In this document: positions 2,647-22,262 of the stretch, piece by piece
Layout: every line of letters starts with the position of its first letter
Numbering within the stretch: the first letter of the stretch is position 1
Source of the DNA: Terriglobia bacterium
Lineage (GTDB): Bacteria; Acidobacteriota; Terriglobia; UBA7540
DNA: 64,000 nucleotides
Direction of reading: 5' to 3'
Assembly (NCBI GenBank): GCA_035712365.1
Contig: DASTAW010000027.1
Location: 1 to 64,000, forward strand
Notes under the pieces: generated by a model
Told to the model about the DNA's origin: nothing
Databases searched by the model: none
Seen by the model: the letters and a program-made list of their open reading frames with translations, nothing else
Made by a program: the position numbers and the translations under genes

Positions 2647-3858
2647 TCAGTTGAAATGGTCGGCGCCGTGCGCAAGCCACGTCAGGTTGAAACGTGCAAA
2701 CTCAATCTCCTCATTGGCGTTTGCTGCGCCCCTTTCGTACAGCAGGCCGATCGTCCCATCGTGCAACACCGCGAGTGATGAATACGCGGAAGGCCCTGCG
2801 TAAATCATCCGGGCCACCGGCCACGTTTTCCCTTCGTCGTAGCTCAGGCGGACGGTCATGCGATCGCGCCGGGCGGTATCGGCCGGGTTTGAAAAGAGCA
2901 GGCGGTTTCTGCCCGCTTCAGTAGCAAGCGTGTACCGAATCATGCTGGCCTGGCAAATGGGCTCAATCAATGCCAGGTCAAGCCGTACGGGAGACCACGT
3001 GAGTCCGCCGTCGTGGCTCAGCGCAATGGCCCGATGCTGCTTGCCCGCATAACTGCGCATGTTCAGCAGCAGGGAGCCATCAGCCAACTGGACCACAGCC
3101 GACTCGTTGGTTTCGGGCCCCGCGCTGCCGCCGATCTTCCAGGTTTCGCCATGATCGTCGCTGTAAATCACGTGCGAGTAGAGAGCGCCCGTTCCCGCCA
3201 GCTTGTGATCGCAGGGAACCACCAGTCGCCCGTTCTCAAGCTGAATGCCGTTGCCGGGACCCGTGGCATACCAGGTCCAGTTGGATTTCTTCGTCGAGGA
3301 GGTGATATCTTGCAGGGCGGCCCAATGCACTCCGTCGTCGCTGCTGTGCGTAATCCACACGGTGCGCGCCCCTTTGGGCGGGCGCTCGTCGATCTCTTTC
3401 TCCGTCACGCCCGCGGGGCTCGCCGTCAGCAGCAGCCAGATGACGCCGGTAGTGCGGTCCCTGACCGGCGTGGGATTTCCAACCGTGAAGCCCGGAAAGC
3501 GCGCCACCACCTGCGCCTGCATCCAGGCCTTCCCGCCGTACACGCTCCGCCTGAGCACGACAGCGGTGGGCGCGGAATCGCTGGCAGACCCAGAACGTGC
3601 CTCGCAGAAAGCCAGAAGAGTACCTTTGCTGGTGACGAGCAACGCAGGAATGCGATGGGCAGCGTAGCCGCCGTCGTTCGCGTGGTAGACGGCAGTCTGC
3701 TGGATGAACCGGCGCGCGGCGTCAGCGCGGCCCGGCGTGAACAACCAGGCCGCGGAAACTAAAACCGCGATCGCAATGTTTTGCACAATTGATCGCTGAT
3801 CGAGACTCGTTCGTTTCCATTTACGGAAGGACGTTCGAGTTCGCAAACCCAAATGCAT
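2647..3858 (-). CDS. Secreted exo-alpha-sialidase-type BNR/Asp-box beta-propeller (403 aa)
   Basis: A GH33-like six-bladed propeller predicted to cleave terminal sialic acids outside the cytoplasm. A basic N-terminus and hydrophobic stretch (about residues 24-47) form a signal peptide ending near GRADA. The HRIPALL motif with its substrate-binding arginine is at 68-74. Four Asp-boxes are clear: SSDDGVHW (172-179), SDDHGETW (233-240), SHDGGLTW (281-288) and SYDEGKTW (339-346). Glu252, Tyr359 and Glu375 stand where nucleophile-pair residues are expected, though this assignment is by eye. It heads a likely three-gene minus-strand unit with the aldolase and aminotransferase. Some acidobacterial BNR proteins act on other sugars, so substrate identity is an inference. 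Confidence 0.88.
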   Translation of the reverse strand: MHLGLRTRTSFRKWKRTSLDQRSIVQNIAIAVLVSAAWLFTPGRADAARRFIQQTAVYHANDGGYAAHRIPALLVTSKGTLLAFCEARSGSASDSAPTAVVLRRSVYGGKAWMQAQVVARFPGFTVGNPTPVRDRTTGVIWLLLTASPAGVTEKEIDERPPKGARTVWITHSSDDGVHWAALQDITSSTKKSNWTWYATGPGNGIQLENGRLVVPCDHKLAGTGALYSHVIYSDDHGETWKIGGSAGPETNESAVVQLADGSLLLNMRSYAGKQHRAIALSHDGGLTWSPVRLDLALIEPICQASMIRYTLATEAGRNRLLFSNPADTARRDRMTVRLSYDEGKTWPVARMIYAGPSAYSSLAVLHDGTIGLLYERGAANANEEIEFARFNLTWLAHGADHFN

Positions 3859-12260: not shown

Positions 12261-12731
12261 TTTCCTCTCCGGCTGCTTGTTCAGTGGCGAAGGCCTTGGA
12301 CAACCAGCCGCTAACGATTTGGCGCGGCGTTGTCTATTGATGCCTCACCGGCGCCAGCCCCGCCCGCAAGGTCTCCGCGCGCGGGTAGCGGGGAGAAGCG
12401 GCCCTGCCCTGATCCCGCACCATCAGCTTGCCCTCTTTCTCCCACGGTTTGCCGGGAGCCTTTTTCTTTTTTGTTGCACCACACATCGCGACGCCGCATA
12501 TTATCACAAGGCGGGCCGGGAAGAGGAAAAGAGCAGTGGCTAGTGGATAGTGGATGGTGGCGAATTGGGGAGGGCGAAACAAAGAAAAGCCGCACACATC
12601 GCAAGAAACGCGACGTGTGCGCCACCCGCGATGACGCAGATGAAGCTGCTTCCCCCTGAAGACAAGACCCGCAGAGTTAGAGAACAACTCTGCGCCCCCA
12701 AACTGCGGCCCAAAGGGGGAATGACGAGCAG
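12261..12731. other. Intergenic gap with REP-like elements
   Basis: This 471-bp gap separates two divergent genes. It contains a CGCATATTATCACAAG word at 12495-12510 that recurs at three other places, an AGTGG/TAGTGGA-rich stretch at 12537-12560 that recurs near 18604-18640, and a hairpin at 12591-12621. No protein or RNA gene is supported. Confidence 0.5.
12591..12621. repeat. REP-like hairpin, family A (second half only)
   Basis: CGCACACATCGC / GCGACGTGTGCG arms around a 7-base loop, followed by CCACCCGCG. It matches the downstream hairpin of the full elements at 14217-14338 and 19301-19424, with compensating changes in the stem (CACAC/GTGTG in place of CATAC/GTATG). Confidence 0.65.
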
Positions 12732-13958
12732 ATGCTGGACACGATGACAACCGGTTGCTGCATTGTTGGCGGCGGTCCTGCGGGAGCGATGCTCGCTCTA
12801 CTTCTCGCCCGGCGGGGAGTTCCGGTTACGCTCCTTGAAATGCACAAGGATTTCGACCGCGAGTTTCGTGGCGACACGCTCCATCCAGCAGTTCTTGAGA
12901 TTCTTGACCAGATCGGTTTGGTCGAACGCATCCATCAGTTGCCGCACTCCAAGGCAACCGGGCCCACGGTGCAATTTCCCTCCGGCGCGTTCCGGCCTTT
13001 CGATCTTGCAAGGCTCAAAACGCGGTTTCCTTACATCCTGCTGGTCCCGCAAGTTCGATTTCTGGAGTTCATCACCAGCGAATCCGCAAAGTATCCCTCG
13101 TTTCGGCTGGTGATGCAGGCCAACGTTAAAAAGCTTATCGAAGAGGATGGGGTTGTCCTCGGCGTGCAATATCTTGCGCCTGACGGCTGGCATGAGGTAC
13201 GCGCCCCGCTCACCGTGGGCGCAGACGGCAGATTTTCTCAGGTGCGCCACCTGGCAAAAATTGAGCCTGTCAAGACTTCGCCTCCCATGGACGTGCTCTG
13301 GTTCCGGCTTCCCAAGCTGCCACAGGACCTGGATGTTCCGGGCGGAGTGTATGGCGGCATCGGCCGCGGCCGGATTCTGATCGCGCTGGACCGCGCGGAT
13401 TACTGGCAGGCAGGCCTGGTGTTTCCAAAAGGACAATATTCGCAAGTGCGCGATCATGGCGTGGAGGCGGTCCGAAAAACCATCACAGAAATCGAACCGC
13501 GATTAGCCCCGCATGTCGAAACGCTGCGAGACTGGCAGCAGTTTTCGCTGCTATCGGTCGAGGCCAGCCGCTGCCCACAATGGTACAAACCGGGCCTCCT
13601 GCTCATAGGCGATGCCGCGCACGTGATGTCTCCGGTGGGGGGCGTCGGCATCAACTACGCCATACAGGATGCAGTGGTGGCCGCAAACGTGTTATGCGGC
13701 CCGCTGAAGACGGGACGGGTTGAACCATCCAGTTTGGCGGAAGTGCAGCGCCAGCGCGAATGGCCCACCCGGGTCATCCAGGCCATGCAGGATTATTTTC
13801 AGAAGAATTTGATCGCCAACGTGCTCACCTCGCGGCAGCCTGCCCGTCCTCCGTGGCAACTGCGACTGCTGACCGCTATACCGCTCCTGCGAAACCTGCC
13901 GGCATATCTGGTTGCATTCGGCGCGCGCCGGGTGCGCCTTCTGGATAACAACGGGTAG
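12732..13958 (+). CDS. FAD-dependent monooxygenase, PHBH fold (408 aa)
   Basis: A group A flavoprotein oxidoreductase. The ADP-binding motif is CCIVGGGPAGAMLALLLARR near residues 9-28, ending in the acidic LLEMHKDF. The DG motif appears as LTVGADGRFSQVR near 160-172, and the ribose-binding GD motif as LLIGDAAHVMSPVGGVG near 292-308. FRGDTLHP near 45 is typical of aromatic or isoprenoid ring hydroxylases. A poly-G stretch (about 12719-12721) precedes the ATG at 12732; a start at 12744 is possible. No pathway partners are adjacent, so the substrate is unknown. Its upstream gap is dense in palindromic repeats. Confidence 0.9.
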   Translation: MLDTMTTGCCIVGGGPAGAMLALLLARRGVPVTLLEMHKDFDREFRGDTLHPAVLEILDQIGLVERIHQLPHSKATGPTVQFPSGAFRPFDLARLKTRFPYILLVPQVRFLEFITSESAKYPSFRLVMQANVKKLIEEDGVVLGVQYLAPDGWHEVRAPLTVGADGRFSQVRHLAKIEPVKTSPPMDVLWFRLPKLPQDLDVPGGVYGGIGRGRILIALDRADYWQAGLVFPKGQYSQVRDHGVEAVRKTITEIEPRLAPHVETLRDWQQFSLLSVEASRCPQWYKPGLLLIGDAAHVMSPVGGVGINYAIQDAVVAANVLCGPLKTGRVEPSSLAEVQRQREWPTRVIQAMQDYFQKNLIANVLTSRQPARPPWQLRLLTAIPLLRNLPAYLVAFGARRVRLLDNNG

Positions 13959-14012
13959 CGCAAGAGCTGTTATGCAACTCTGCGGCCGTTGATCTTGAAT
14001 AAAAGAACCGCA

Positions 14013-14027
14013 TCCCGCAGCGCGGGA
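14013..14027. repeat. Family C hairpin TCCCGC-AGC-GCGGGA
   Basis: A perfect 6-bp stem with a 3-base loop inside a GC-rich stretch. Equivalent hairpins occur at 18505-18519 (loop AAA) and 18690-18704 (loop AGC). Confidence 0.55.
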
Positions 14028-14065
14028 CCGCACGGCGGGACAACTCTCCGCTACCCGGAGGGTGC

Positions 14066-14096
14066 CGCATACGTTCCTCTGTTTGGAATGTATGCG
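14066..14096. repeat. REP-like hairpin, family A (first half only)
   Basis: Arms CGCATACGTTCC and GGAATGTATGCG around a 7-base loop. The stem has one internal G/T mismatch that is kept in other copies. Confidence 0.7.
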
Positions 14097-14109
14097 GGAC
14101 CTCGGCCCA

Positions 14110-14177
14110 TGTAGAGCCGGCCTTCAGGCCGGCACGCGTTCGTTGGAAAATTGCCGGGCTAAAGCCTCGGCGCTACA
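14110..14177. repeat. Family B palindromic element
   Basis: Begins TGTAGAGCCGGCC and ends CGGCGCTACA, so its ends are inverted repeats. An internal GCCGGCCTTCAGGCCGGC palindrome sits on the left and TTGCCGGGCTAAAG on the right. Copies at 18402-18469 and 20507-20562 share the same plan. Confidence 0.65.
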
Positions 14178-14182
14178 AAAAC

Positions 14183-14211
14183 GCGCTAGGCTTTTGGGGC
14201 CTGGCTGAAGA
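14183..14211 (-). pseudogene. 29-bp remnant identical to the 3' end of the SelA-like gene
   Basis: These 29 bases match 16838-16866 with a single difference. On the minus strand they read the last codons of the SelA-like protein (SQAPKA then TAG) plus a few bases past the stop. There is no longer reading frame attached, so this looks like a stranded gene end left by duplication or rearrangement, now wedged between family B and family A repeats. Confidence 0.6.
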
Positions 14212-14216
14212 GTCGG

Positions 14217-14338
14217 GTAGCGCATACGTTCCGCCTTTGGAATGTATGCGCCAGCAGGGGATTCCTGCGACATGATTTGCGATCGGAAAAGAAGGGTCGC
14301 ATACATCGCAAAGAGCGCGACGTATGCGCCACCCGCGT
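14217..14338. repeat. Full REP-like doublet, family A (copy 1)
   Basis: Two hairpins about 47 bases apart. The first, 14221-14250, has arms CGCATACGTTCC/GGAATGTATGCG. The second, 14298-14328, has arms CGCATACATCGC/GCGACGTATGCG. The copy at 19301-19424 keeps the same order and spacing; the last ~54 bases of the two copies are identical. Confidence 0.75.
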
Positions 14339-14388
14339 AGATCGCGAGGATCGCGCCACCCCGCGAAAATCTGATGCGCCAGTGGCCC

Positions 14389-15576
14389 TCAGGGGTGTAT
14401 TGATGGCGACGGATTTTCTTCCGGAAACGGCTCACCGGGCTTGGCGACGTGGATGAAATGGTCTGTAAAAACGGTGTGGCCGCCGGGCAATTCACCGCGC
14501 GGCATGTGGCACTGGACGCAGTTGCTGGTGCCGACCGGACAGGCTGCGCCGGGGTGTTCACGAGTGAGCGTGGACTCAGGCTGCTGAAGGTGGCATGCCA
14601 GGCACTTGGAATCGTAGTAGGAAAGGTCATCGGGGAGGTTCTGATGCGGGTCATGGCAGGCAAGGCAAGTGATTCGTGCATCGTTCGGGTTCCAGCAGCG
14701 GCTTAAAACCAGGCGGTAAGCCTGAAAGCGGATTGTCACCACACTCCGCAAGCCCAGGGCATGCACGTCCTGGATGGTACGATGGCAAGAGCCGCAAAAT
14801 TTGACGGAATCTCCGGGCGAAAGGCGTGCCGGATTAGTAATGAAGAGCTGTCGAAGATCGCCCTTTTTCATTGCCGCCACATGCCGCTCTCCGGGACCAT
14901 GACAATGTTCGCATGCAACCCCAGGTGTCATCTGTGGGACGTGAAGCTGGCCGTTGCTGACGGCTCCCGTGAAATGGCAGGAAAAGCAGGCCGACGCCCC
15001 CTCGGGAGTCATCTCGCGGCCCATGGCCTCTTCAACTGAATCGTGAGGGCCGTGTCGTTGACCTATGGTCAGGTCCAGGCCGTTTATGGAGGCATAGAAG
15101 CTGACCCGCGACTCCCAATACCCTCCATTCCGCTCAAAAACATAGGTCTGACCACCCACGCCATCACCCACGGCCAGCAGGAGCGGAACCGAAATCGTGT
15201 GATTGCCGTCGCTAACCGAGTAGGTAGCCCGCCCAGCTTGCAATTGGATACGGTAAAAATAAGGCCCGATTCGCACGGACATGTCCGGATTGATGCGAAG
15301 GACCTCTGAATCAGAGGCGAGCTTTCCCGCGTGCGCCATGGGAGTGCCCGCCTGTGTTGCGGCTTCAGGGGTATGGCACTCGGCGCAGACCTTTGCTCCT
15401 ACAAAGCCAGTCGGCTGGTTTGGATGATGCGCCCTGCCGGCAGGCGCGGCCCCTTGCGTCGGGAGCGACATCCCTTGCAGGGACGCGAAGGCAAAGAATG
15501 TCGTGGCTTGAACAAGGAGGGCGGCCAGCCGAATCGCCAGGATTCGAAAGCTCGGGCCATGTGGCAACTTCGACAT
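14389..15576 (-). CDS. Secreted multiheme c-type cytochrome, seven CXXCH motifs (395 aa)
   Basis: Carries seven CXXCH heme-attachment sites in order: CAECH, CFSCH, CEHCH, CGSCH, CLACH, CLACH and CVQCH. A hydrophobic segment (about residues 14-35) follows a basic N-terminus, so the protein is exported and matured in the periplasm. The motif pattern resembles cytochrome c554-like and 'doubled CXXCH' electron carriers seen with Acidobacteriota and Planctomycetota. Spare histidines (for example HAGKL, FTDHFIH) could be distal ligands. The frame opens at 15657; ATG 15576 was chosen because it gives a normal signal peptide, but no ribosome binding site is clear. Partner enzymes are not evident. Confidence 0.88.
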   Translation of the reverse strand: MSKLPHGPSFRILAIRLAALLVQATTFFAFASLQGMSLPTQGAAPAGRAHHPNQPTGFVGAKVCAECHTPEAATQAGTPMAHAGKLASDSEVLRINPDMSVRIGPYFYRIQLQAGRATYSVSDGNHTISVPLLLAVGDGVGGQTYVFERNGGYWESRVSFYASINGLDLTIGQRHGPHDSVEEAMGREMTPEGASACFSCHFTGAVSNGQLHVPQMTPGVACEHCHGPGERHVAAMKKGDLRQLFITNPARLSPGDSVKFCGSCHRTIQDVHALGLRSVVTIRFQAYRLVLSRCWNPNDARITCLACHDPHQNLPDDLSYYDSKCLACHLQQPESTLTREHPGAACPVGTSNCVQCHMPRGELPGGHTVFTDHFIHVAKPGEPFPEENPSPSIHP

Positions 15577-16052
15577 ACACGATCTGGCCGCCATCCTTTC
15601 GGCTGAAGACATAGTTTCAGGTTGAGGCTGGGGCCAACAGCTCAAGGCCCCGGCCACGCTTAGACGGAACTTCTATTTGAATCCTCAGCCCCCAAATGAT
15701 TTTACACCTCGCTGCACTGGCAGCCAATGCCACCGGGACAGTAATGGCCGCTGGTTTCTACGATTTCCAAGCGGGACTATTGTGAGGGCTAAGGCCCTCG
15801 CGTCGCAAAGCCGCAAACGCCCGCCGAGCACAGGTGGCGCATCCTACGTTCCACTGTTTGGAATCGATGCGTCTTCTCTGAAAACTTCTTGGGCTACCCA
15901 TGCCGCCGCGTATTATCACAAGACGCGCAGGGCAGCGTTGCTGATTGACTCCGGTGGCTATTTTGGGGGAAGGGCCGTACTGGTGTTGATGCGTATACAT
16001 CGCAAAGAACGCGACGTGTGCGCGGCCCGCCCGTGCTACATTCTCCGCGAAA
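15577..16052. other. Intergenic gap with degenerate family A repeats
   Basis: The gap contains a degenerate family A first hairpin at 15838-15871, a CGTATTATCACAAG word near 15908 and a family A second hairpin at 15991-16023. A full element appears to have been stretched by about 100 bases. A 164-codon plus-strand frame crosses these repeats and is not credible as a gene. Confidence 0.5.
15838..16023. repeat. Expanded, degenerate family A element
   Basis: The left hairpin (15838-15871) keeps the CGCAT/ATGCG and TTCC/GGAA stem blocks. The right hairpin (15991-16023) keeps GCG..ATACATCGC / GCGACGTGTGCGC. Between them lies the recurrent TATTATCACAAG word. Order matches the complete copies. Confidence 0.55.
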
Positions 16053-16517
16053 TCATCTTGCAAATAAATGCGGGACGTACCAACGCGCGTAGGTGGCGAA
16101 TCCCAAAAGCAGGACCACCCACCAGGTCAGCAGCAAGCTTCGCATCCAGAGCTTGTAACGCGCGATTCTGAGTCTTTCGGGCAAAAGCTTCGCGCCCGCG
16201 GACAACAGGATGTACAAGCCAGCGCATTCAACGACGGTCCCGAGCGCCGCATGCGCTGTCGCCAGCGCGTAGTAGGCTTTGCCCAGCTTCAGTGGAATCC
16301 TTGGACTCACGTGGCCGCGAAAAGACGGGACCATTACCAGCGCAATGACGGCAGCGTTGAGCAGTACAATCAACGACTGGCACCACGCGTGGGCGCGAAA
16401 CCTCCGCATGCGGGCGAGAAGCGCACCGGCGATCAGCCCCGCTCCCATGCCGAACTCGAGAAGCAGAACCACGTCGGCGTAGCGCGGAGCTGCGGTTCCA
16501 AGGAAGCTTGTGTTCAT
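16053..16517 (-). CDS. Integral membrane protein, DUF420-like (154 aa)
   Basis: A small membrane protein with about four to five helices (residues about 15-36, 45-66, 82-105 and 125-148). A conserved-looking His falls in an otherwise hydrophobic helix (ALATAHAALGTVVE) and an Arg-rich turn follows (RLRIARYKLWMR). The layout resembles DUF420 proteins, which often accompany heme-copper oxidase or cytochrome assembly genes, but the assignment is by shape only. A GGAGAT ribosome binding site precedes the ATG. It lies next to the multiheme cytochrome on the same strand, separated by 476 bp of repeats. Confidence 0.75.
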   Translation of the reverse strand: MNTSFLGTAAPRYADVVLLLEFGMGAGLIAGALLARMRRFRAHAWCQSLIVLLNAAVIALVMVPSFRGHVSPRIPLKLGKAYYALATAHAALGTVVECAGLYILLSAGAKLLPERLRIARYKLWMRSLLLTWWVVLLLGFATYARWYVPHLFAR

Positions 16518-16840
16518 TGCATTTATCTCCGTGGGGCTGCCACCAGACGGATGCGTCTTCGCTATGTAGACACGTTTTCGGACAAATTTATTCCCGCGTC
16601 ATAAAGGCTTCAGCCGGTAGCGGAGAGTTTCATGTCCCGGAAATTCTGCGGGGCTTGTCTTTCGGGCAGGCAAAAGCTGCGGAGTTCAAAAACAACCCCG
16701 CGCTACACAAACTCTTTTCTGTGGAGCGTACGAATTTCTTAGCCTACGGACATCCGGCGAGGCAATGAGCCCTCACCCGGTCGCCTTGCGCGACCACCTT
16801 CTCCCCAAGGGAGAGGGCAATCATTCTTCCCATTGGCGCG
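16518..16840. other. Intergenic gap with a GC hairpin
   Basis: No gene is supported. At 16779-16795 a GGTCGC/GCGACC hairpin is followed by CTCCC/GGGAG arms near 16801-16813, just downstream of the SelA-like stop on the minus strand. On that strand it could serve as a transcription stop without a T-run, or be another dispersed repeat. Confidence 0.4.
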
Positions 16841-18295
16841 CTAAGCTTTTGGGGCCTGGCTGAAGATTTCAACGAGCCGGTCCGCGACGACTTCAGCCTC
16901 GCCCTCTTTAAGCTGCCAGACTGCAAAGCCGAAAATGTTCGGGTCGGCGTTTCGCCGGTGGTGCTCGCCGCCTGGGGACTCGCCGCCATTTTCCCAGGCG
17001 GTGGGTGCAGGGGTTATTGATTGCGATTGCGGATCCCACATCAGGTTGCCTTCCTGAACGTTGTGCTCGGTGTTGTCTTCCGGCCAGCGCCCGGACATGC
17101 CGCCCGCGCCGGCATGCGAGGCGCCGATGGCGAGCGGTCGAGTAGCAGCCAGTTGCTCCATCAGCTCCTGGCCGGTGATCTTGACCCTGGCCGGGTCAAT
17201 TCGCCAGCTATAGTAAGGGGTGACATTCCCAAGGCCGTTGGGGTCAAATCGTCGCGGCAGTTCGGTTACTCCAAACTTCTTCAGCGCCCTGGTGATGAGC
17301 TGCGCGTCACGGTCGTAGCCGGCGATCGTCTTGTTGTAGTCCTGATTGACGAAAAGTTCCAGAGCTTTCAGGAAGGCGAAGATTTCCTCTTTGCCAACCT
17401 TGCAGGGACGCCCAATCGTGTCCTCATTGGGGCTCATGTTTAGCAGCGCATAGTGGATCAATTGTTCCTTGCCGATCAGCAGGCCGGTGGCCTGCGGTCC
17501 CTTGATGTCCTTGCCGCCGCTGAAGGCGACAAAGTCCCAGCCTTCCTGCGGCATGGTCCACAGCCGCTCGATGGGCGGCACGTCGGCAGCAGCGTCATTG
17601 AAGGCGTAAATGTTGCGCGCACGCGCAATTTCAAGGATTTCCTTACCGGAGACTTTTCCTCGGTCTTCATTGATGTGCAGGAAATGGATGGCCAATGTTT
17701 TCGGATTGATGGCGTTGATCATCTCGTCTTTGGTTTCCACTTCCACCAGTGTCGCTCCGGTTTGGCGGACCTGGTGGTCAAACGGATTGCGATGGGCTTT
17801 CTGAATGATCACCTGGGTCTTCGGAAACCCGGTCACGTTGGGACACTGCCTGATGCGCGGTGTCAAATCTTCCGTCATCATGCCGGCGTATGCCACCATG
17901 ATGCCAGCGGCCGCGCCGCTGGTTACCAGGCCCGTATAGCCGGCGGGCCACTTGCAGAGCTTCGCCATCCACTTGCCGGCAGCCACTTCCAGGTCATTAA
18001 TGCTGGTGCAGTGCTCGTTGCCCTGCCGGTAGAGCTCCATGGCCTCGGCGGGGATTACCGATCCGCCAATGACGGTGAGCGTGCCGTTGATGTTGACCAG
18101 CGGCGTTACGCCGAGCTCGCCCCAGACGTCACCGGTGGAACCGAGCCCGCTCTTGATGGGAACAACCGGATGACCGCTTGCGGATGACTTGGACTTGCCG
18201 AATGACATTCCCGACGGCGCAAGCAGCCCTCCGCTGGTGACGGCAAGCGCGGATAGAAATGAACGCCGGTTCGATTTCGACTTAAAGTTGATCAC
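16841..18295 (-). CDS. Tat-exported SelA-like PLP-dependent protein (484 aa)
   Basis: An aminotransferase-fold enzyme of the SelA / D-glucosaminate-6-phosphate ammonia-lyase-like group. The N-terminus has a twin-arginine signal (SNRRSFLSALAVTSGGLLAP, about residues 8-27), so it should be folded with PLP before export. Family marks include VNINGTLTVIGGS near 67, VTSGAAAGI near 123, FNDAAADVPP near 234 and FSGGKDIKGPQATG near 259-272, where a lysine should bind PLP. RRNADPNIFGF lies near the C-terminus. It is located among envelope and secreted proteins. Substrate unknown. A 29-bp copy of its 3' end lies at 14183-14211. Confidence 0.85.
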   Translation of the reverse strand: MINFKSKSNRRSFLSALAVTSGGLLAPSGMSFGKSKSSASGHPVVPIKSGLGSTGDVWGELGVTPLVNINGTLTVIGGSVIPAEAMELYRQGNEHCTSINDLEVAAGKWMAKLCKWPAGYTGLVTSGAAAGIMVAYAGMMTEDLTPRIRQCPNVTGFPKTQVIIQKAHRNPFDHQVRQTGATLVEVETKDEMINAINPKTLAIHFLHINEDRGKVSGKEILEIARARNIYAFNDAAADVPPIERLWTMPQEGWDFVAFSGGKDIKGPQATGLLIGKEQLIHYALLNMSPNEDTIGRPCKVGKEEIFAFLKALELFVNQDYNKTIAGYDRDAQLITRALKKFGVTELPRRFDPNGLGNVTPYYSWRIDPARVKITGQELMEQLAATRPLAIGASHAGAGGMSGRWPEDNTEHNVQEGNLMWDPQSQSITPAPTAWENGGESPGGEHHRRNADPNIFGFAVWQLKEGEAEVVADRLVEIFSQAPKA

Positions 18296-18351
18296 TGATT
18301 CCTCCCGTTTTGATGGCTTCCTTTGGACCTTCTAACTCGCTGACCGGCTGG

Positions 18352-18381
18352 CGCATACGTTCCGCCGCTAGGAATGTATGC
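18352..18381. repeat. REP-like hairpin, family A (first half only)
   Basis: CGCATACGTTCC / GGAATGTATGC arms around GCCGCTA, directly followed by a GCATGC word and 20 bases later by a family B element. Confidence 0.65.
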
Positions 18382-18401
18382 CGCATGCCGGCATTTGCTT
18401 C

Positions 18402-18469
18402 TGTAGCGCCGGCCTTCAGGCGGGCGCCGTGTGGTTCAGAAGACTGCCGGGCTAAAGGTCGGCGCTACA
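18402..18469. repeat. Family B palindromic element
   Basis: TGTAGCGCCGGCCTTCAGG at the left end and GGGCTAAAGGTCGGCGCTACA at the right make inverted ends, as in the copy at 14110-14177. Confidence 0.65.
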
Positions 18470-18504
18470 ACTGCGTGACCCAGACCCTGCTCACGTCATT
18501 TCGG

Positions 18505-18704
18505 TCCCGCAAAGCGGGAGAAGAATCTGCTTCTCTTCGGGCGTCGCAGCCTGCGCGGGAAATCCCTTGCACAACCCCTTGCGAGGCCGCATATTATCAG
18601 GATTAGTGGTGAGTGGATAGTGATTAGTGGACAGCGGGAGTGGTAGGGGGCAGAAACAAGAAGGGCCGCATACATCGCAAATGCCGCGGTCCCGCAGCGC
18701 GGGA
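18505..18704. repeat. Two family C hairpins flanking an AGTGG-rich stretch
   Basis: TCCCGC-AAA-GCGGGA (18505-18519) and TCCCGC-AGC-GCGGGA (18690-18704). Between them lies a stretch of TAGTGG/GAGTGG words (18604-18640) resembling 12537-12560. Confidence 0.5.
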
Positions 18705-18784
18705 CGGCGCCCGGCACCAGCCTCGGGCAGGGAAGTCGCTGTAGTTAGATTGGCCAACAAACTTAGAAATTCGAAAGGAGAGCT

Positions 18785-19294
18785 ATGAAGAGATTATCGG
18801 TTGCCTTCATGATGTTTGCGTTGTCGATGACATGCGGGGTCCTGGTTGCGCAGCAGGCCCCGGCTGGAGGGGCAGGAGGCAGGCATATGCGACACGCGAT
18901 GACTCCGCCGGCGACAGGCCCAATGCTCAACCTTGCCAACCAACTTGCCGACGCGATTAACAAGCAGGACGCCGCCTCACTCGAAAAGTTGCTGGCGCCG
19001 AACGCTGTCTACCTCGACGAGGACGGACACGCTCCGCCGGCGCGCGCGTGGGTGCGCAAGCTAACAACGGGCACCGCTGCGAAGCACATCGAAATTTCAG
19101 AAACTCATGGCCAGACGTGGGACGACTCGGGATGGGTGTCGTTTAATTACACCCTCACCGAACAGTACCAGGGCCAACCCAAAACTCTGAAAGGTACGGC
19201 AAGCATCGTTGCCGAAAAGGCGGCATCCGGCGACTGGCAAATCAAACTGATTCACGGAGCCTTGGACCAAAAGGTCGCCGGCATTACGCAATAG
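18785..19294 (+). CDS. Secreted NTF2/SnoaL-like protein (169 aa)
   Basis: A signal peptide (residues 1-22, ending VLVAQ) precedes a short Gly/His/Met-rich linker and an NTF2-like fold from about residue 45. The fold contains LADAINKQDAASLEKLLAPNAVYLDEDG, then WVRKLTTGTAAKHIEISE and WVSFNYTLTEQYQGQPKTLKGTASIVAEK...WQIKLIHGA. This is the DUF4440/SnoaL order. ATG at 18785 is preceded by AAAGGAG. Members act as enzymes or as plain binding domains, so activity is not inferred. It stands alone between repeat-rich gaps. Confidence 0.82.
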   Translation: MKRLSVAFMMFALSMTCGVLVAQQAPAGGAGGRHMRHAMTPPATGPMLNLANQLADAINKQDAASLEKLLAPNAVYLDEDGHAPPARAWVRKLTTGTAAKHIEISETHGQTWDDSGWVSFNYTLTEQYQGQPKTLKGTASIVAEKAASGDWQIKLIHGALDQKVAGITQ

Positions 19295-19604
19295 GAGGAG
19301 GGTAACGCATGCGTTCCGCGGTTTGGAATGTATGCGCCAGCAGTGGATTCCTGCAGCATCATGCGCTGTCGGAAAAGAAGGGTCGCATACATCGCAAAGA
19401 GCGCGACGTATGCGCCACCCGCGCCATCATCAGCAACGCCGCATATTATCACAAGCCGGGCAGGGCAGAGATGGGCCGGACGTGAATCGCGCACGTGGCA
19501 ACGACGGTGATGCATGCGCCTTCCACGGTCCATCTTCGGCGCTTGCTCTACTATGGAAGGCAGGAGGGTGCTAAATTAGAGAGAAGGCACGTGAGGGCGC
19601 AGCA
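19295..19604. other. Intergenic gap with a complete family A element
   Basis: The gap begins with the complete REP-like doublet (19301-19424), then GCATATTATCACAAG at 19441-19455. The remainder up to the methyltransferase start shows no gene. Confidence 0.5.
19301..19424. repeat. Full REP-like doublet, family A (copy 2)
   Basis: First hairpin 19306-19336 and second 19384-19414. It starts only seven bases after the NTF2-like stop codon, so it will be in that gene's 3' transcript end. The last ~54 bases are identical to copy 1. Confidence 0.75.
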
Positions 19605-20465
19605 ATGGGTATCGATATACACGCACTATATTTTCTGCGGAGCGTCAAAAATAAAAAACCGTTGGGCGACACCATTACCATCGGTCGTCAAAGGCTCGAC
19701 GTTGTCGAATCCACGGTCAGGAAACTGGTCGGCACAAAGCCGTCCTACAAAAATCAGCCCTACTGTGAAGATTTGCTCACAGAATATTTCGGCGCTACGA
19801 AAGTGGATTCACTTGACAACTCAACTTTTGAAAACGCGACCCACGTTCACGATATGAATGAGCCGTTGCCGAAGAGCCTTTATGAAAAATATGACACCGT
19901 GATTGACGGCGGCAGCCTGGAGCACGTTTACAACGTGCCGCAAGCGTTAAAGAACTGTTCGCACCTTTTAAAGCCGGGCGGCCAGATTATGCATTTTTCG
20001 CCGGCGAACAATTTCTGCGGGCACGGATTCTGGCAGGTCTCACCGGAGCTGTTTTTTTCGCTCTATTCGGCGAAAAACGGCTACCGCGAAACGGAAGTCC
20101 TGATCGCAGACTTATCCGATACAACAAGATGGTACAGGGTGAAAGAACCCAGGGACGGGAAGCGGGTGGTTGTCTATTCGCTGACTCGGCTGAATGTGCT
20201 GGTGCGGACCGTGCTGGACAGGGCGGATTTTTCGCATTCACAGGTTCAGCAGAGCGACTATGTCTATGAATGGGGAAATTCTTTGCCCACAGCATCAAAG
20301 CCGGATTTGGAATCACCCGGCTTGAAACAGAAACTGAAGAAAATACCGCTCCTATATCCCCTTTTGGCTCCAATCTATCATCATTACTTGTGCTCAAAAG
20401 CAAAGACCGGCTTGAACGGCAGAAATCCGGGGCTGACTGTGATTGACCTCAGGTGCTGCCTCTAA
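19605..20465 (+). CDS. Methyltransferase-like protein (286 aa)
   Basis: A class I methyltransferase-like fold. The core is visible at about residues 60-140: EDLLTEYFGATKVDSLDNS, then YDTVIDGGSLEHVYNVPQALKNCSHLLKPGGQIMHFSPANNF, which corresponds to motif IV and post-motif segments. A glycine-rich motif I is poor. The C-terminal third is rich in basic and hydrophobic residues. Codons here are more A/T-rich than neighbours (for example the Lys/Asn-rich N-terminus), hinting at recent transfer. Similar proteins sit in polysaccharide loci, but no such locus surrounds it. The start at 19605 has no strong ribosome binding site. Confidence 0.72.
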   Translation: MGIDIHALYFLRSVKNKKPLGDTITIGRQRLDVVESTVRKLVGTKPSYKNQPYCEDLLTEYFGATKVDSLDNSTFENATHVHDMNEPLPKSLYEKYDTVIDGGSLEHVYNVPQALKNCSHLLKPGGQIMHFSPANNFCGHGFWQVSPELFFSLYSAKNGYRETEVLIADLSDTTRWYRVKEPRDGKRVVVYSLTRLNVLVRTVLDRADFSHSQVQQSDYVYEWGNSLPTASKPDLESPGLKQKLKKIPLLYPLLAPIYHHYLCSKAKTGLNGRNPGLTVIDLRCCL

Positions 20466-20506: not shown

Positions 20507-20562
20507 TGTAGCGCCGCCGTCCCGGCGTGCACTTCTCATGGCCGGCAAGATGCCGGCGCTAC
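20507..20562. repeat. Family B palindromic element (shorter variant)
   Basis: Begins TGTAGCGCCG and ends CCGGCGCTAC, with internal GGCCGGCAAGATGCCGGC. It lies about 70 bases before the chosen start of the propeller gene, whose open frame runs back into it. Confidence 0.6.
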
Positions 20563-20630
20563 GGAAGTCCGTCACTCTATATGGGCGCCACGACTGCCGC
20601 CAGCCCGCGATTGGGGAGTCTATCGAAACG

Positions 20631-22262
20631 ATGGAAACGATTGCAAGAACACGCCTGAAAGCTATTAAAGCGGCGTTGGTTGTCTTCGTGGCTGTCGCGG
20701 CCGTTGTGGGAATCGTGACGACCGCGGCGGCGCAGGATGTTCTGACCTGGCATAGCGACAATGCGCGGACGGGGCAGAATCTCAATGAAAAAATCCTGAC
20801 CTTACAAAACGTCAACCCCAGGACCTTCGGCAAGCTGTTCGTAATTCATGTCGATGGCAAAGTGGATGCCGAACCGCTCTACGTCAGCGGAATCGAAATT
20901 CCTCAGCACGGAAAGCAGAACGTGCTCTACGTGGCCACCGAGCACGACAGCCTTTACGCATTCAACGCCGATACGGGAAACGCTCTCTGGCATGTCCGAT
21001 TGCTCAAAGCTGGAGAATCGCCGTCAGACGATCGCAGTTGCGGTCAGGTGGTCCCGGAAATCGGCGTCACCTCGACGCCAGTGATCGACCTTCACCGCGG
21101 CCCTCACGGAACGATTTACGCGGTGGCGATGAGCAAGGACCAGCAGGGAAATTATTTTCAAAGGCTTCATGCGCTGGATCTCCAGAATGGCAGGGAAGAA
21201 TTCGGCGGGCCGGTGGATATTCACGCGACGTTTCCGGGCAAGGGCGCCGTCAGCCATAACGGCACGGACGTTTTCGATCCGAAACAATATGAAGAGCGGG
21301 CGGCCCTGCTGCTTTCGGGTGGAGTGCTCTATACCAGTTGGGCGTCACATTGTGATATCGATCCTTACAACGGCTGGGTGATTGGCTACGACGCCCAAAC
21401 ATTGAAGCAGGAAGGCGCGCTCGATTTTACCCCAAACGGTGAAAAGGGTTCGGTGTGGCAGAGCGGCGCAGGGCCGGCTGCCGACCCGCAGGGCTACATC
21501 TACCTGCTGGCGGCGAATGGAAGTTTCGATACGACCCTCGACGCCAGAGGATTTCCGTCGCGAGGCGATTTCGGCAACTCTTTCTTGAAGATCGCGGCGA
21601 GCGGCGGCAGGCTTTCTGTGGCGGATTACTTCACCATGTACAACGTCGAGGCTGAAAACTCTCGCGACGATGACCTGGGTTCTGGCGGGCCGCTGGTGCT
21701 GCCTCCCATGAAGGATGCTTCCGGAAAAATCTGGCATCTGGTGGTGGGAGCGGGAAAAGACCTGAGCATTTACATCGCGAACCGCGACGACATGGGGAAA
21801 TTTAATCCCAAGGGCAACCAGCAAATCTATCAGGAAGTGCCTCATGCCATGAAGCACGGCTTTTCGCGCCCCATTCCGGCGTATTTTGATGGCCGCCTCT
21901 ACTACGCGTCAACCGATGACGCGCTCCGCGAATACCGGTTTCAGAAAGCCCGGCTGATCGCCAAACCCGTCTCTGAAACCAGCATGGCGTTTAACTACCC
22001 GGGTGCAGCGCCCAGCATCTCCGCGGATGGCGCGCGAAACGGCATCGTCTGGGCAACGGAAAATAAAGATCCCGCGGTGCTGCACGCGTTCGATGCCAAC
22101 AACCTGGCGCGCGAATTGTACAGCAGCAACGCGGCCCCATCGGGAAGGGACCATTTTGGCGCTGGAAACAAGTTCATCACTCCCATGATCGCCAACGGAA
22201 AAGTCTATGTGGGAACGACTAACGGAGTGGGAGTCTTTGGCCTGCTGAAACGGGGGCAGTAA
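20631..22262 (+). CDS. Secreted PQQ-like beta-propeller protein (543 aa)
   Basis: An eight-bladed-type propeller with WD-like blades. The best is VLYVATEHDSLYAFNADTGNALWHVRL (about residues 102-128), with others at IVWATENKDPAVLHAFDA and GKVYVGTTNGVGVFGL. Residues 13-37 are a hydrophobic signal segment ending TTAAAQ. The frame is open from 20538, but the earlier part runs through a family B repeat and ATG 20631 gives a proper signal peptide, so that start was chosen. Catalytic PQQ-dehydrogenase residues are not evident. Acidobacterial relatives are annotated as pyrroloquinoline-quinone-binding, without known activity. Confidence 0.85.
   Translation: METIARTRLKAIKAALVVFVAVAAVVGIVTTAAAQDVLTWHSDNARTGQNLNEKILTLQNVNPRTFGKLFVIHVDGKVDAEPLYVSGIEIPQHGKQNVLYVATEHDSLYAFNADTGNALWHVRLLKAGESPSDDRSCGQVVPEIGVTSTPVIDLHRGPHGTIYAVAMSKDQQGNYFQRLHALDLQNGREEFGGPVDIHATFPGKGAVSHNGTDVFDPKQYEERAALLLSGGVLYTSWASHCDIDPYNGWVIGYDAQTLKQEGALDFTPNGEKGSVWQSGAGPAADPQGYIYLLAANGSFDTTLDARGFPSRGDFGNSFLKIAASGGRLSVADYFTMYNVEAENSRDDDLGSGGPLVLPPMKDASGKIWHLVVGAGKDLSIYIANRDDMGKFNPKGNQQIYQEVPHAMKHGFSRPIPAYFDGRLYYASTDDALREYRFQKARLIAKPVSETSMAFNYPGAAPSISADGARNGIVWATENKDPAVLHAFDANNLARELYSSNAAPSGRDHFGAGNKFITPMIANGKVYVGTTNGVGVFGLLKRGQ

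Follow-up and report, generated by a model that had tools for sequence, protein, structure and literature searches.

The window analysed here is a stretch of 64,000 nucleotides, bases 1-64000 of contig DASTAW010000027.1 (C27) of a Terriglobia genome (GCA_035712365.1; 4,667,009 bases in 65 contigs). Its segment between 12.6 and 19.4 kb carries short paired hairpins whose complete form is a 122-bp unit. This unit has the anatomy of a REPIN, a doublet of two inverted repetitive extragenic palindromic (REP) hairpins with their feet pointing outward and a spacer between them, and is very probably non-autonomous mobile DNA, with a REP-associated tyrosine transposase (RAYT) of the kind encoded on contig C38 as its likely mobiliser. 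(Cn designates a contig of the source genome, G000; G001 and G002 are congener genomes, and Ln is an extracted locus.) Five of the seven window proteins that were scanned score over the Pfam cut-off, and the products of 16053-16517 and 16841-18295 match families only under it, the latter having an ortholog in a congener. A first-pass annotation of the window regarded all copies of the hairpins as intergenic. The window REPs do lie between open reading frames (ORFs) that are judged real, whereas unsupported ORFs overlap them.

Repeat search, alignment and a covariance model agree on two complete short REPINs. The first (14215..14338) consists of a REP of TTCC type on the plus strand (14215..14254; foot GTAG; match to the REP covariance model R1 at E 5.3e-10), the spacer, and an inverted REP of TCGC type on the minus strand (14294..14334; foot GTGG; E 4.0e-12). 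The second (19300..19424) starts 6 bp past the end of a DUF4440 ORF and has the same build, with a plus-strand TTCC REP whose foot is GTAA (19300..19340; E 9.1e-10) and a minus-strand TCGC REP with foot GTGG (19380..19420; E 4.0e-12). The two complete copies that had been proposed are thus confirmed, one at 14217-14338 as given and the other at 19302-19423 with 90% identity to it (E 4.9e-41), and the alignment contains the near-identical tail that had been described as an end of ~54 shared bases. On its proper strand the first hairpin reads GGGTAG-CGCATACGTTCC..GGAATGTATGCG; the second, on the minus strand, reads GGGTGG-CGCATACGTCGC..GCGATGTATGCG. The two hairpins are inverted copies of each other, so that a single REP is present in two stem variants, TTCC and TCGC. 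A lone TTCC REP (14060..14100, plus strand; E 1.0e-10) lies close to the first REPIN. It is one of three half copies recorded earlier, at 12591, 14066 and 18352, all of which are real; that at 12591 is a TCGC hairpin and the other two are TTCC hairpins.

The doublet is able to fold as a whole. The 120-base unit of the 14215 copy forms one long imperfect hairpin (DNA z scores of -6.2 and -6.6 for the two strands), and one strand of the 19300 copy has a DNA fold z score of -3.7. (A fold of L021:2328-2476, with z -1.7 and 12 shuffles equal to it, is uninformative on the REPIN at that locus, as the segment ended before the right REP.) The REP stem usually includes a G.T wobble, which is found in 41 members of a wider set of 56 REPs, 12 having A-T and three another combination at that position. 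Presence of the G.T pair in alignment A2 is circular, because the regular expression behind the 33 hairpins from which R1 was built demanded it. Covariation of TTCC with TCGC is not, because the stem halves were not forced to match. Stem cells pair in 99.0% of cases in A2, and the adjacent pairs 16/29 and 17/28 change in concert in 12 of the 26 distinct sequences, which bears out the compensating stem changes that had been proposed. The number of cells paired, the number of double-changed cells and the covariation score were each reached by none of 500 shuffles. On the other hand, the number of double-changed pairs (3) was reached by 128 of 500 shuffles, and all 500 reached the number of pair types, since few columns vary.

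The 122-bp unit recurs nearly full-length on contigs C7 (83%), C40 (83%) and C62 (79%), and there are at least 47 nucleotide matches to it at E<=0.001 (best 40 of 54 candidates scored). The five full copies align over both hairpins and spacer, and their 600-bp flanks are unrelated, save for a single 26-bp match that the flanks of the two window copies share: the whole doublet is dispersed to unrelated sites. R1 has at least 63 matches at E<=0.001 in the genome, or at least 62 distinct REPs once one opposite-strand overlap is removed (a lower bound, with the best 150 of 2244 candidates scored). Of the two outcomes named beforehand as refuting, few further copies or copies inside conserved coding sequence, neither was seen, coding overlap having been checked inside the window only. 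REPs are clumped, with eight of the 62 in the 12.6-19.4 kb segment of C27 and another eight within 131-135 kb of C39. (A fixed-loop IUPAC pattern for both hairpins, with 11 matches as against 5 in a reversed control, was a poor probe because its loop length was wrong, and was replaced by the regular expression and the covariance model.) The 58 REPs that were extracted are, by loose typing, 30 TCGC, 21 TTCC and 7 other; some model matches, those with stems in GCAGA.., belong to sister families. The feet are GTGG in 28 of these REPs, GTCG in 12, GTAG in 2 and other in 16.

Pairing of the REPs is ordered. Among 18 neighbouring pairs no more than 200 bp apart, 10 are inverted with outward feet, seven run in the same direction, and the lone pair with inward feet spans two adjacent REPINs. 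Each of the 10 inverted outward-foot pairs is a heterodimer of one TTCC and one TCGC REP (one TCGC member having decayed to CCGC); eight were assigned by the loose typing, and those on C62 and C7 by the regular expression and the alignment. Since five of these pairs derive from a single short unit and another four from a single unit on C39, there are ~3 independent cases, and the consistency of the heterodimers is suggestive, not statistical. REPs of inverted doublets keep the GT[AG]G foot in 15 of 20 cases (the second member on C7 has CTCG). They are also more alike than the rest (0.895 for 19 of the 20 against 0.782 for 42, with sister-family hairpins included among the latter; 0 of 5000 permutations). 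The difference is smaller when only the strict family is taken and C39 duplicates are collapsed (0.905 for 12 doublet REPs against 0.84 for 26; 10 of 5000 permutations).

The window also holds a longer REPIN subtype (15832..16028), in which a TTCC REP and a TCGC REP are separated by a TATTATC box; it is 71% identical over 182 columns to a congener sequence, L165:3348-3529. This is what the first-pass annotation called a stretched degenerate copy (15838-16023), and the copy is real but not merely degenerate. Its left TTCC REP is degenerate (15832..15875, plus strand; R1 match at E 0.06 in the genome search and 0.0012 in a smaller search), its box lies at 15902..15935 on the plus strand, and its right TCGC REP (15988..16028, minus strand) matches at E 8.1e-6. 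The same arrangement, TTCC REP, conserved box around GCCGCATATTATCACAAGCCGGGCAGGGCAGAG and TCGC REP, is found again in G002: the covariance model detects both REPs at L165:7608-7805, a REP on either side at L165:5196-5377, and the left REP at L165:3338, where the right one is decayed. The TATTATC words are therefore the spacer box of a REPIN subtype of ~190 bp. Four such words had been reported in the window, and there are four matches at <=3 mismatches where 0.05 are expected (none of 100 shuffles reaches four). A box search places the other three, all on the plus strand, at 12474..12525, at 18565..18603 (matched at the orthologous place in a congener) and at 19428..19473, beyond the second short REPIN. 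Boxes also lie near the remaining half copies, which are read as broken long elements. The TCGC REP at 12587..12627 (minus strand; the CACAC/GTGTG variant; E 1.9e-10), which has a box upstream, probably belonged to a long REPIN as its right end, the left REP having been lost. The TTCC REP at 18346..18386 (plus strand; E 8.4e-9) and a half TCGC hairpin identified by repeat search at 18658..18681 (plus strand) are possibly the left and right ends of one interrupted long REPIN. At E<=0.01 the box query matches five places in the source genome, two in G001 and eight in G002. The box may have a life of its own, since in G002 it is present without REP hairpins between two orthologous genes that were compared. 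It contains TTGCAC-N19-TATTAT, thought of as a promoter by eye only, and degenerate TAGTGGATAGTGG-like tracts follow shortly after two of the boxes (12535-12560 and 18605-18640).

No transposase had been noticed in the window, and the Y1_Tnp profile (PF01797) has no match on C27. Elsewhere in the genome the same profile has 11 matches, nine of them over the Pfam cut-off. All three of the genes that were scanned further (on C38, C39 and C64) exceed the cut-offs of PF01797 and of NF047646, the NCBIfam model for REP-associated tyrosine transposases; the IS200 model NF033573 matched all three, but under its cut-off. The RAYT gene of C38 (L023:2703-3254) encodes 183 amino acids and is bracketed by REPs of the family described above (family A), at 2584-2624 and 2640-2680 upstream and at 3252-3292, at the stop codon (coordinates of L023), all within ~120 bp. 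It is the only RAYT examined in the source genome that family A brackets. The RAYTs of C39 and C64, which are 89% alike and each 60% alike to that of C38, are bracketed by another hairpin family, with GGGTGGCGCAGATAT.. on one side and GGGTGGCGCAGATACG.. on the other, two unlike REPs; this second RAYT type with a REP family of its own is encoded at L010:1468-2016 and L021:4722-5273. Within the source genome, RAYTs that are 89% alike go with near-identical REPs, and RAYTs that are 60% alike with REPs that are not near-identical. Residues H60, H62 and Y144 are invariant in the three proteins and fit the HUH and Y---NP motifs. The motifs themselves (EHFH, WQ, YMHNNP) match class 2 (Y---NP) but none of the subclasses listed in Table 1 of PMC6006769 exactly. 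That paper also sets apart a group of GTGG-enriched sequences close to its subclass 2.2. (Comparisons with the literature, here and below, refer to extracts of the cited papers.) The best named relatives of the RAYTs (best 20 of 46 loci) come from acidobacterial metagenome-assembled genomes, labelled Acidobacteria, Acidobacteriota, Acidobacteriaceae, Acidiferrum or Terriglobia. A further RAYT fragment (C28:352-468 of the source genome) is 69% identical to the C38 RAYT over residues 143-181, and an IS200-like transposase gene split across two frames, with an insertion-sequence-type Y..EQ motif, is found at C21:21507-21847 (L009/L019).

The association of RAYT with REP extends to relatives. Matches to the C38 RAYT at E<=1e-10 occur in 34 of 101 genomes and REP model matches in 32 of 61 (own genome included in each count; the REP search used stricter filters than the RAYT search). 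In G002 a partial RAYT, the closest to that of C38 over its aligned part, is 82% identical to it over residues 66-182, the part before this being without alignment, and the same REP stands directly at its stop codon (L149:2362-2402). The reading frame concerned (L149:1570-2361) has an N-terminal part that is unalignable to RAYTs, while its C-terminal part is retained together with the REP next to it. Of 55 distinct RAYT-like ORFs at the loci examined, 21 have a GGGT[AG][GC]-footed hairpin within 250 bp, and in these 21 pairs RAYT and REP diverge together (Mantel r 0.635 between protein and REP distance, 0 of 9999 permutations; thinned to <=75% identity, n=16, r=0.42, 2 of 9999; host relatedness is not controlled in either case).

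Orthologous positions differ in their REP content. The SelA-like ORF at 16841-18295 and the ORF at 20538-22262 (quinoprotein-like by eye) are neighbours in G002 too, with 86% and 84% DNA identity. The gap between them is 0.3 kb in G002 and holds a TATTATC box but no REP-model match up to E 0.1, whereas in the source genome it is 2.2 kb and holds a REP, a half REP, a REPIN and two ORFs. This is the allelic comparison that had been called for, and REPIN presence differs between the species. In G001 the region upstream of a gene homologous to that at 18785-19294 contains a short REPIN (82%); the contig ends within the homologous gene, so that its downstream side is out of view.

The paired hairpins can thus be thought of as passengers, probably copied across the genome by a RAYT gene encoded outside the window. 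Mobilisation by a RAYT had been surmised from the window alone; the number of REPs, the RAYT genes over the model cut-off and the family-A REPs on both sides of the C38 RAYT support it. By analogy with the known biochemistry of TnpAREP (PMC8266576), a RAYT of the C38 type would recognise one REP as a folded single strand through its GTGG or GTAG foot and stem, and would cut beside it by way of the HUH/Tyr active site; strand transfer would then move or copy the whole doublet to new places. Single hairpins would mostly be the decayed remains of doublets.

Several observations weigh against this reading. The TCGC REP does not lie right beside the C38 RAYT gene, which is flanked by TTCC REPs only, and the C39 RAYT sits among four family-A REPINs, yet its nearest REPs belong to a different family. 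The GT[AG]G foot is present in just 30 of the 58 extracted REPs, about half. A profile of the RAYTs has two IS200-class transposases as its best PDB matches (6.3e-8 and 1.8e-7), with E. coli TnpAREP (4ER8) third (2.7e-7). Co-occurrence of RAYT and REP over 61 genomes is weak (18 with both, eight with RAYT only, 14 with REP only, 21 with neither; one-sided p 0.022), and weaker without the source genome (p 0.030) or when at least 10 REPs are required (p 0.097); local RAYT/REP evidence is better than co-occurrence at the level of genomes. Within 250 bp, 34 of the 55 RAYT-like ORFs have no hairpin of the strict definition, some of the loci ending near the gene. The permutation tests on doublets are not independent, because the copies have common ancestry. 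The orthologous gap in G002 is no clean empty site, because whole genes differ as well, and the sequences compared gave no instance of excision, insertion or a target-site event.

Some of these points bear on which enzyme is at work. The elements may be REPINs that are mobilised by another RAYT, of the C39/C64 type, or by several RAYTs each acting on one REP type; this is unlikely, though a real possibility. Four near-identical REPINs surround the C39 RAYT, the TCGC type directly brackets no RAYT examined, and there are nine Y1 matches over the cut-off in the genome; weak model matches of TCGC or a similar type lie ~0.9 kb from the Y1 gene of C21 and ~1.2 kb from a below-cut-off match at C33:175439. 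Against this, the hairpins right beside the C39 and C64 RAYTs are of the different family GGGTGGCGCAGATA.., and bracketing by family A is confined, among the source-genome RAYTs examined, to C38, whose RAYT is on these grounds the likelier mobiliser.

It is improbable that the hairpins are kept for a host function, as stabilisers of RNA, terminators or regulatory structures, instead of being mobile passengers. Physiological roles have been attributed to REPs (PMC8266576), the stems do have compensating changes, and one REPIN begins 6 bp after the end of an ORF. But a transposase that requires a hairpin would also yield compensating changes, REP copy number and sites vary between congeners, and an Rfam scan of 12301-19800 gave no family at gathering score, the one match up to E 1 (15180-15226) lying outside the hairpins. 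Least probable by far is that the elements are miniature derivatives of IS200/IS605, mobilised by an insertion-sequence-class TnpA: hairpin ends together with a Y1-type enzyme would fit, and a weak REP-model match (E 5.7e-5) lies ~900 bp from the IS200-like gene on C21, but the REPs bracket a gene with the RAYT motif Y---NP and are not the ends of an IS200-class tnpA with a Y---Q motif, and the three scanned RAYTs exceed the cut-off of the RAYT model but fall short of that of the IS200 model.

The system belongs to the known REPIN/RAYT kind, in a bacterial group with few earlier descriptions. Like the REPINs of Pseudomonas fluorescens SBW25 (Bertels and Rainey 2011; PMC3116915), those described here are inverted REP doublets with a spacer that can fold as one hairpin, are associated with a RAYT, and have doublets that are more conserved than the singlets, which are read as remnants; Bertels and Rainey took the greater likeness of doublet REPs as a sign that the doublet replicates as a unit. 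Their study also used deep sequencing to look for excision junctions in Pseudomonas. In contrast with SBW25, REPs are few (at least 62, as against 1,422 16-mers), inverted pairs always combine two stem types, and the spacer is well conserved within a subtype. The REP and bacterial interspersed mosaic elements (BIMEs) of E. coli with their TnpAREP (PMC8266576, PMC6006769) share the GTAG/GTGG foot, an imperfect stem on one strand, pairs that mix related REP types and a RAYT flanked by its own REPs. They differ in the stem, where an AA-GC bulge takes the place of what is here mostly a G.T wobble, and in the enzyme, which has DHLH and YIHYNP in place of EHFH and YMHNNP.

Within Acidobacteria, Y1 genes with dispersed flanking repeats have been described as class 3 TnpAY1 (PMC6006769) and as TIRYTs, which have terminal inverted repeats (PMC3733652). 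The present system resembles both in this respect, but its Y motif ends in NP, not Q, its foot is GT[AG]G and not the CnGA of class 3 hairpins, and its repeats are short REP hairpins in place of terminal inverted repeats. Where GTAG-tagged REPs were surveyed, the extracts name Proteobacteria, Cyanobacteria, Chloroflexi and the Planctomycetes-Verrucomicrobia-Chlamydiae group, with TIRYTs for Acidobacteria (PMC3733652); class 3 genes are likewise named for Acidobacteria (PMC6006769). Among the papers listed by a search of open-licence literature, none deals with GT[AG]G-footed REPINs from Acidobacteriota, which is weak evidence of absence. The additions to the known kind are modest. They consist of the group to which the host belongs, heterodimers that recur consistently, a spacer in two subtypes, and RAYT variants that are paired with REP variants from one relative to the next. 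The value of a clear REPIN/RAYT system in a probable acidobacterium lies in the many RAYT/REP pairs of its relatives, whose measurable co-divergence could serve to test how RAYT recognition follows the REP. For annotation it suggests that intergenic hairpins of this type be considered as REPIN remains first, and for regulatory roles afterwards.

The feet of the short unit differ between its two REPs. Over six copies (five from the source genome and one from a congener) the TCGC REP has the foot GTGG in six of six, and the TTCC REP has GT[AG]G in two of six, a pattern that would be compatible with recognition of only the TCGC REP. The copies are few and related, however, the four REPINs on C39 have GTGG on both feet, and the C38 RAYT is bracketed by TTCC REPs. 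It is conceivable, if rather doubtful, that Acidobacteriota and Planctomycetota have a hitherto undescribed RAYT subclass (PEHFH / WQR / YMHNNP), which moves obligate-heterodimer REPINs in which the TCGC REP keeps a GTGG guide foot and the TTCC foot is free to decay. The two ends of such REPINs would differ in function, one being a left and the other a right end as in IS200/IS605, and the elements would represent an extant intermediate stage between insertion sequences and REPINs of the symmetric kind.

Other repeats accompany the REPINs of the window. A GTAG-footed inverted pair, TGTAG[A/C]GCCGGCCTTCAGGC...GCCGGGCTAAAG..CGGCGCTACA, lies beside or inside family-A elements at 14100-14185 and 18402-18470. 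It was considered as a second genome-wide family and rejected, because beyond its two good copies, which both lie in the window, there is just a partial copy on C39. Another repeat, of the CCCTCACCCGGTCGCC..-type, occupies 16760-16821 and also matches three places in G001.

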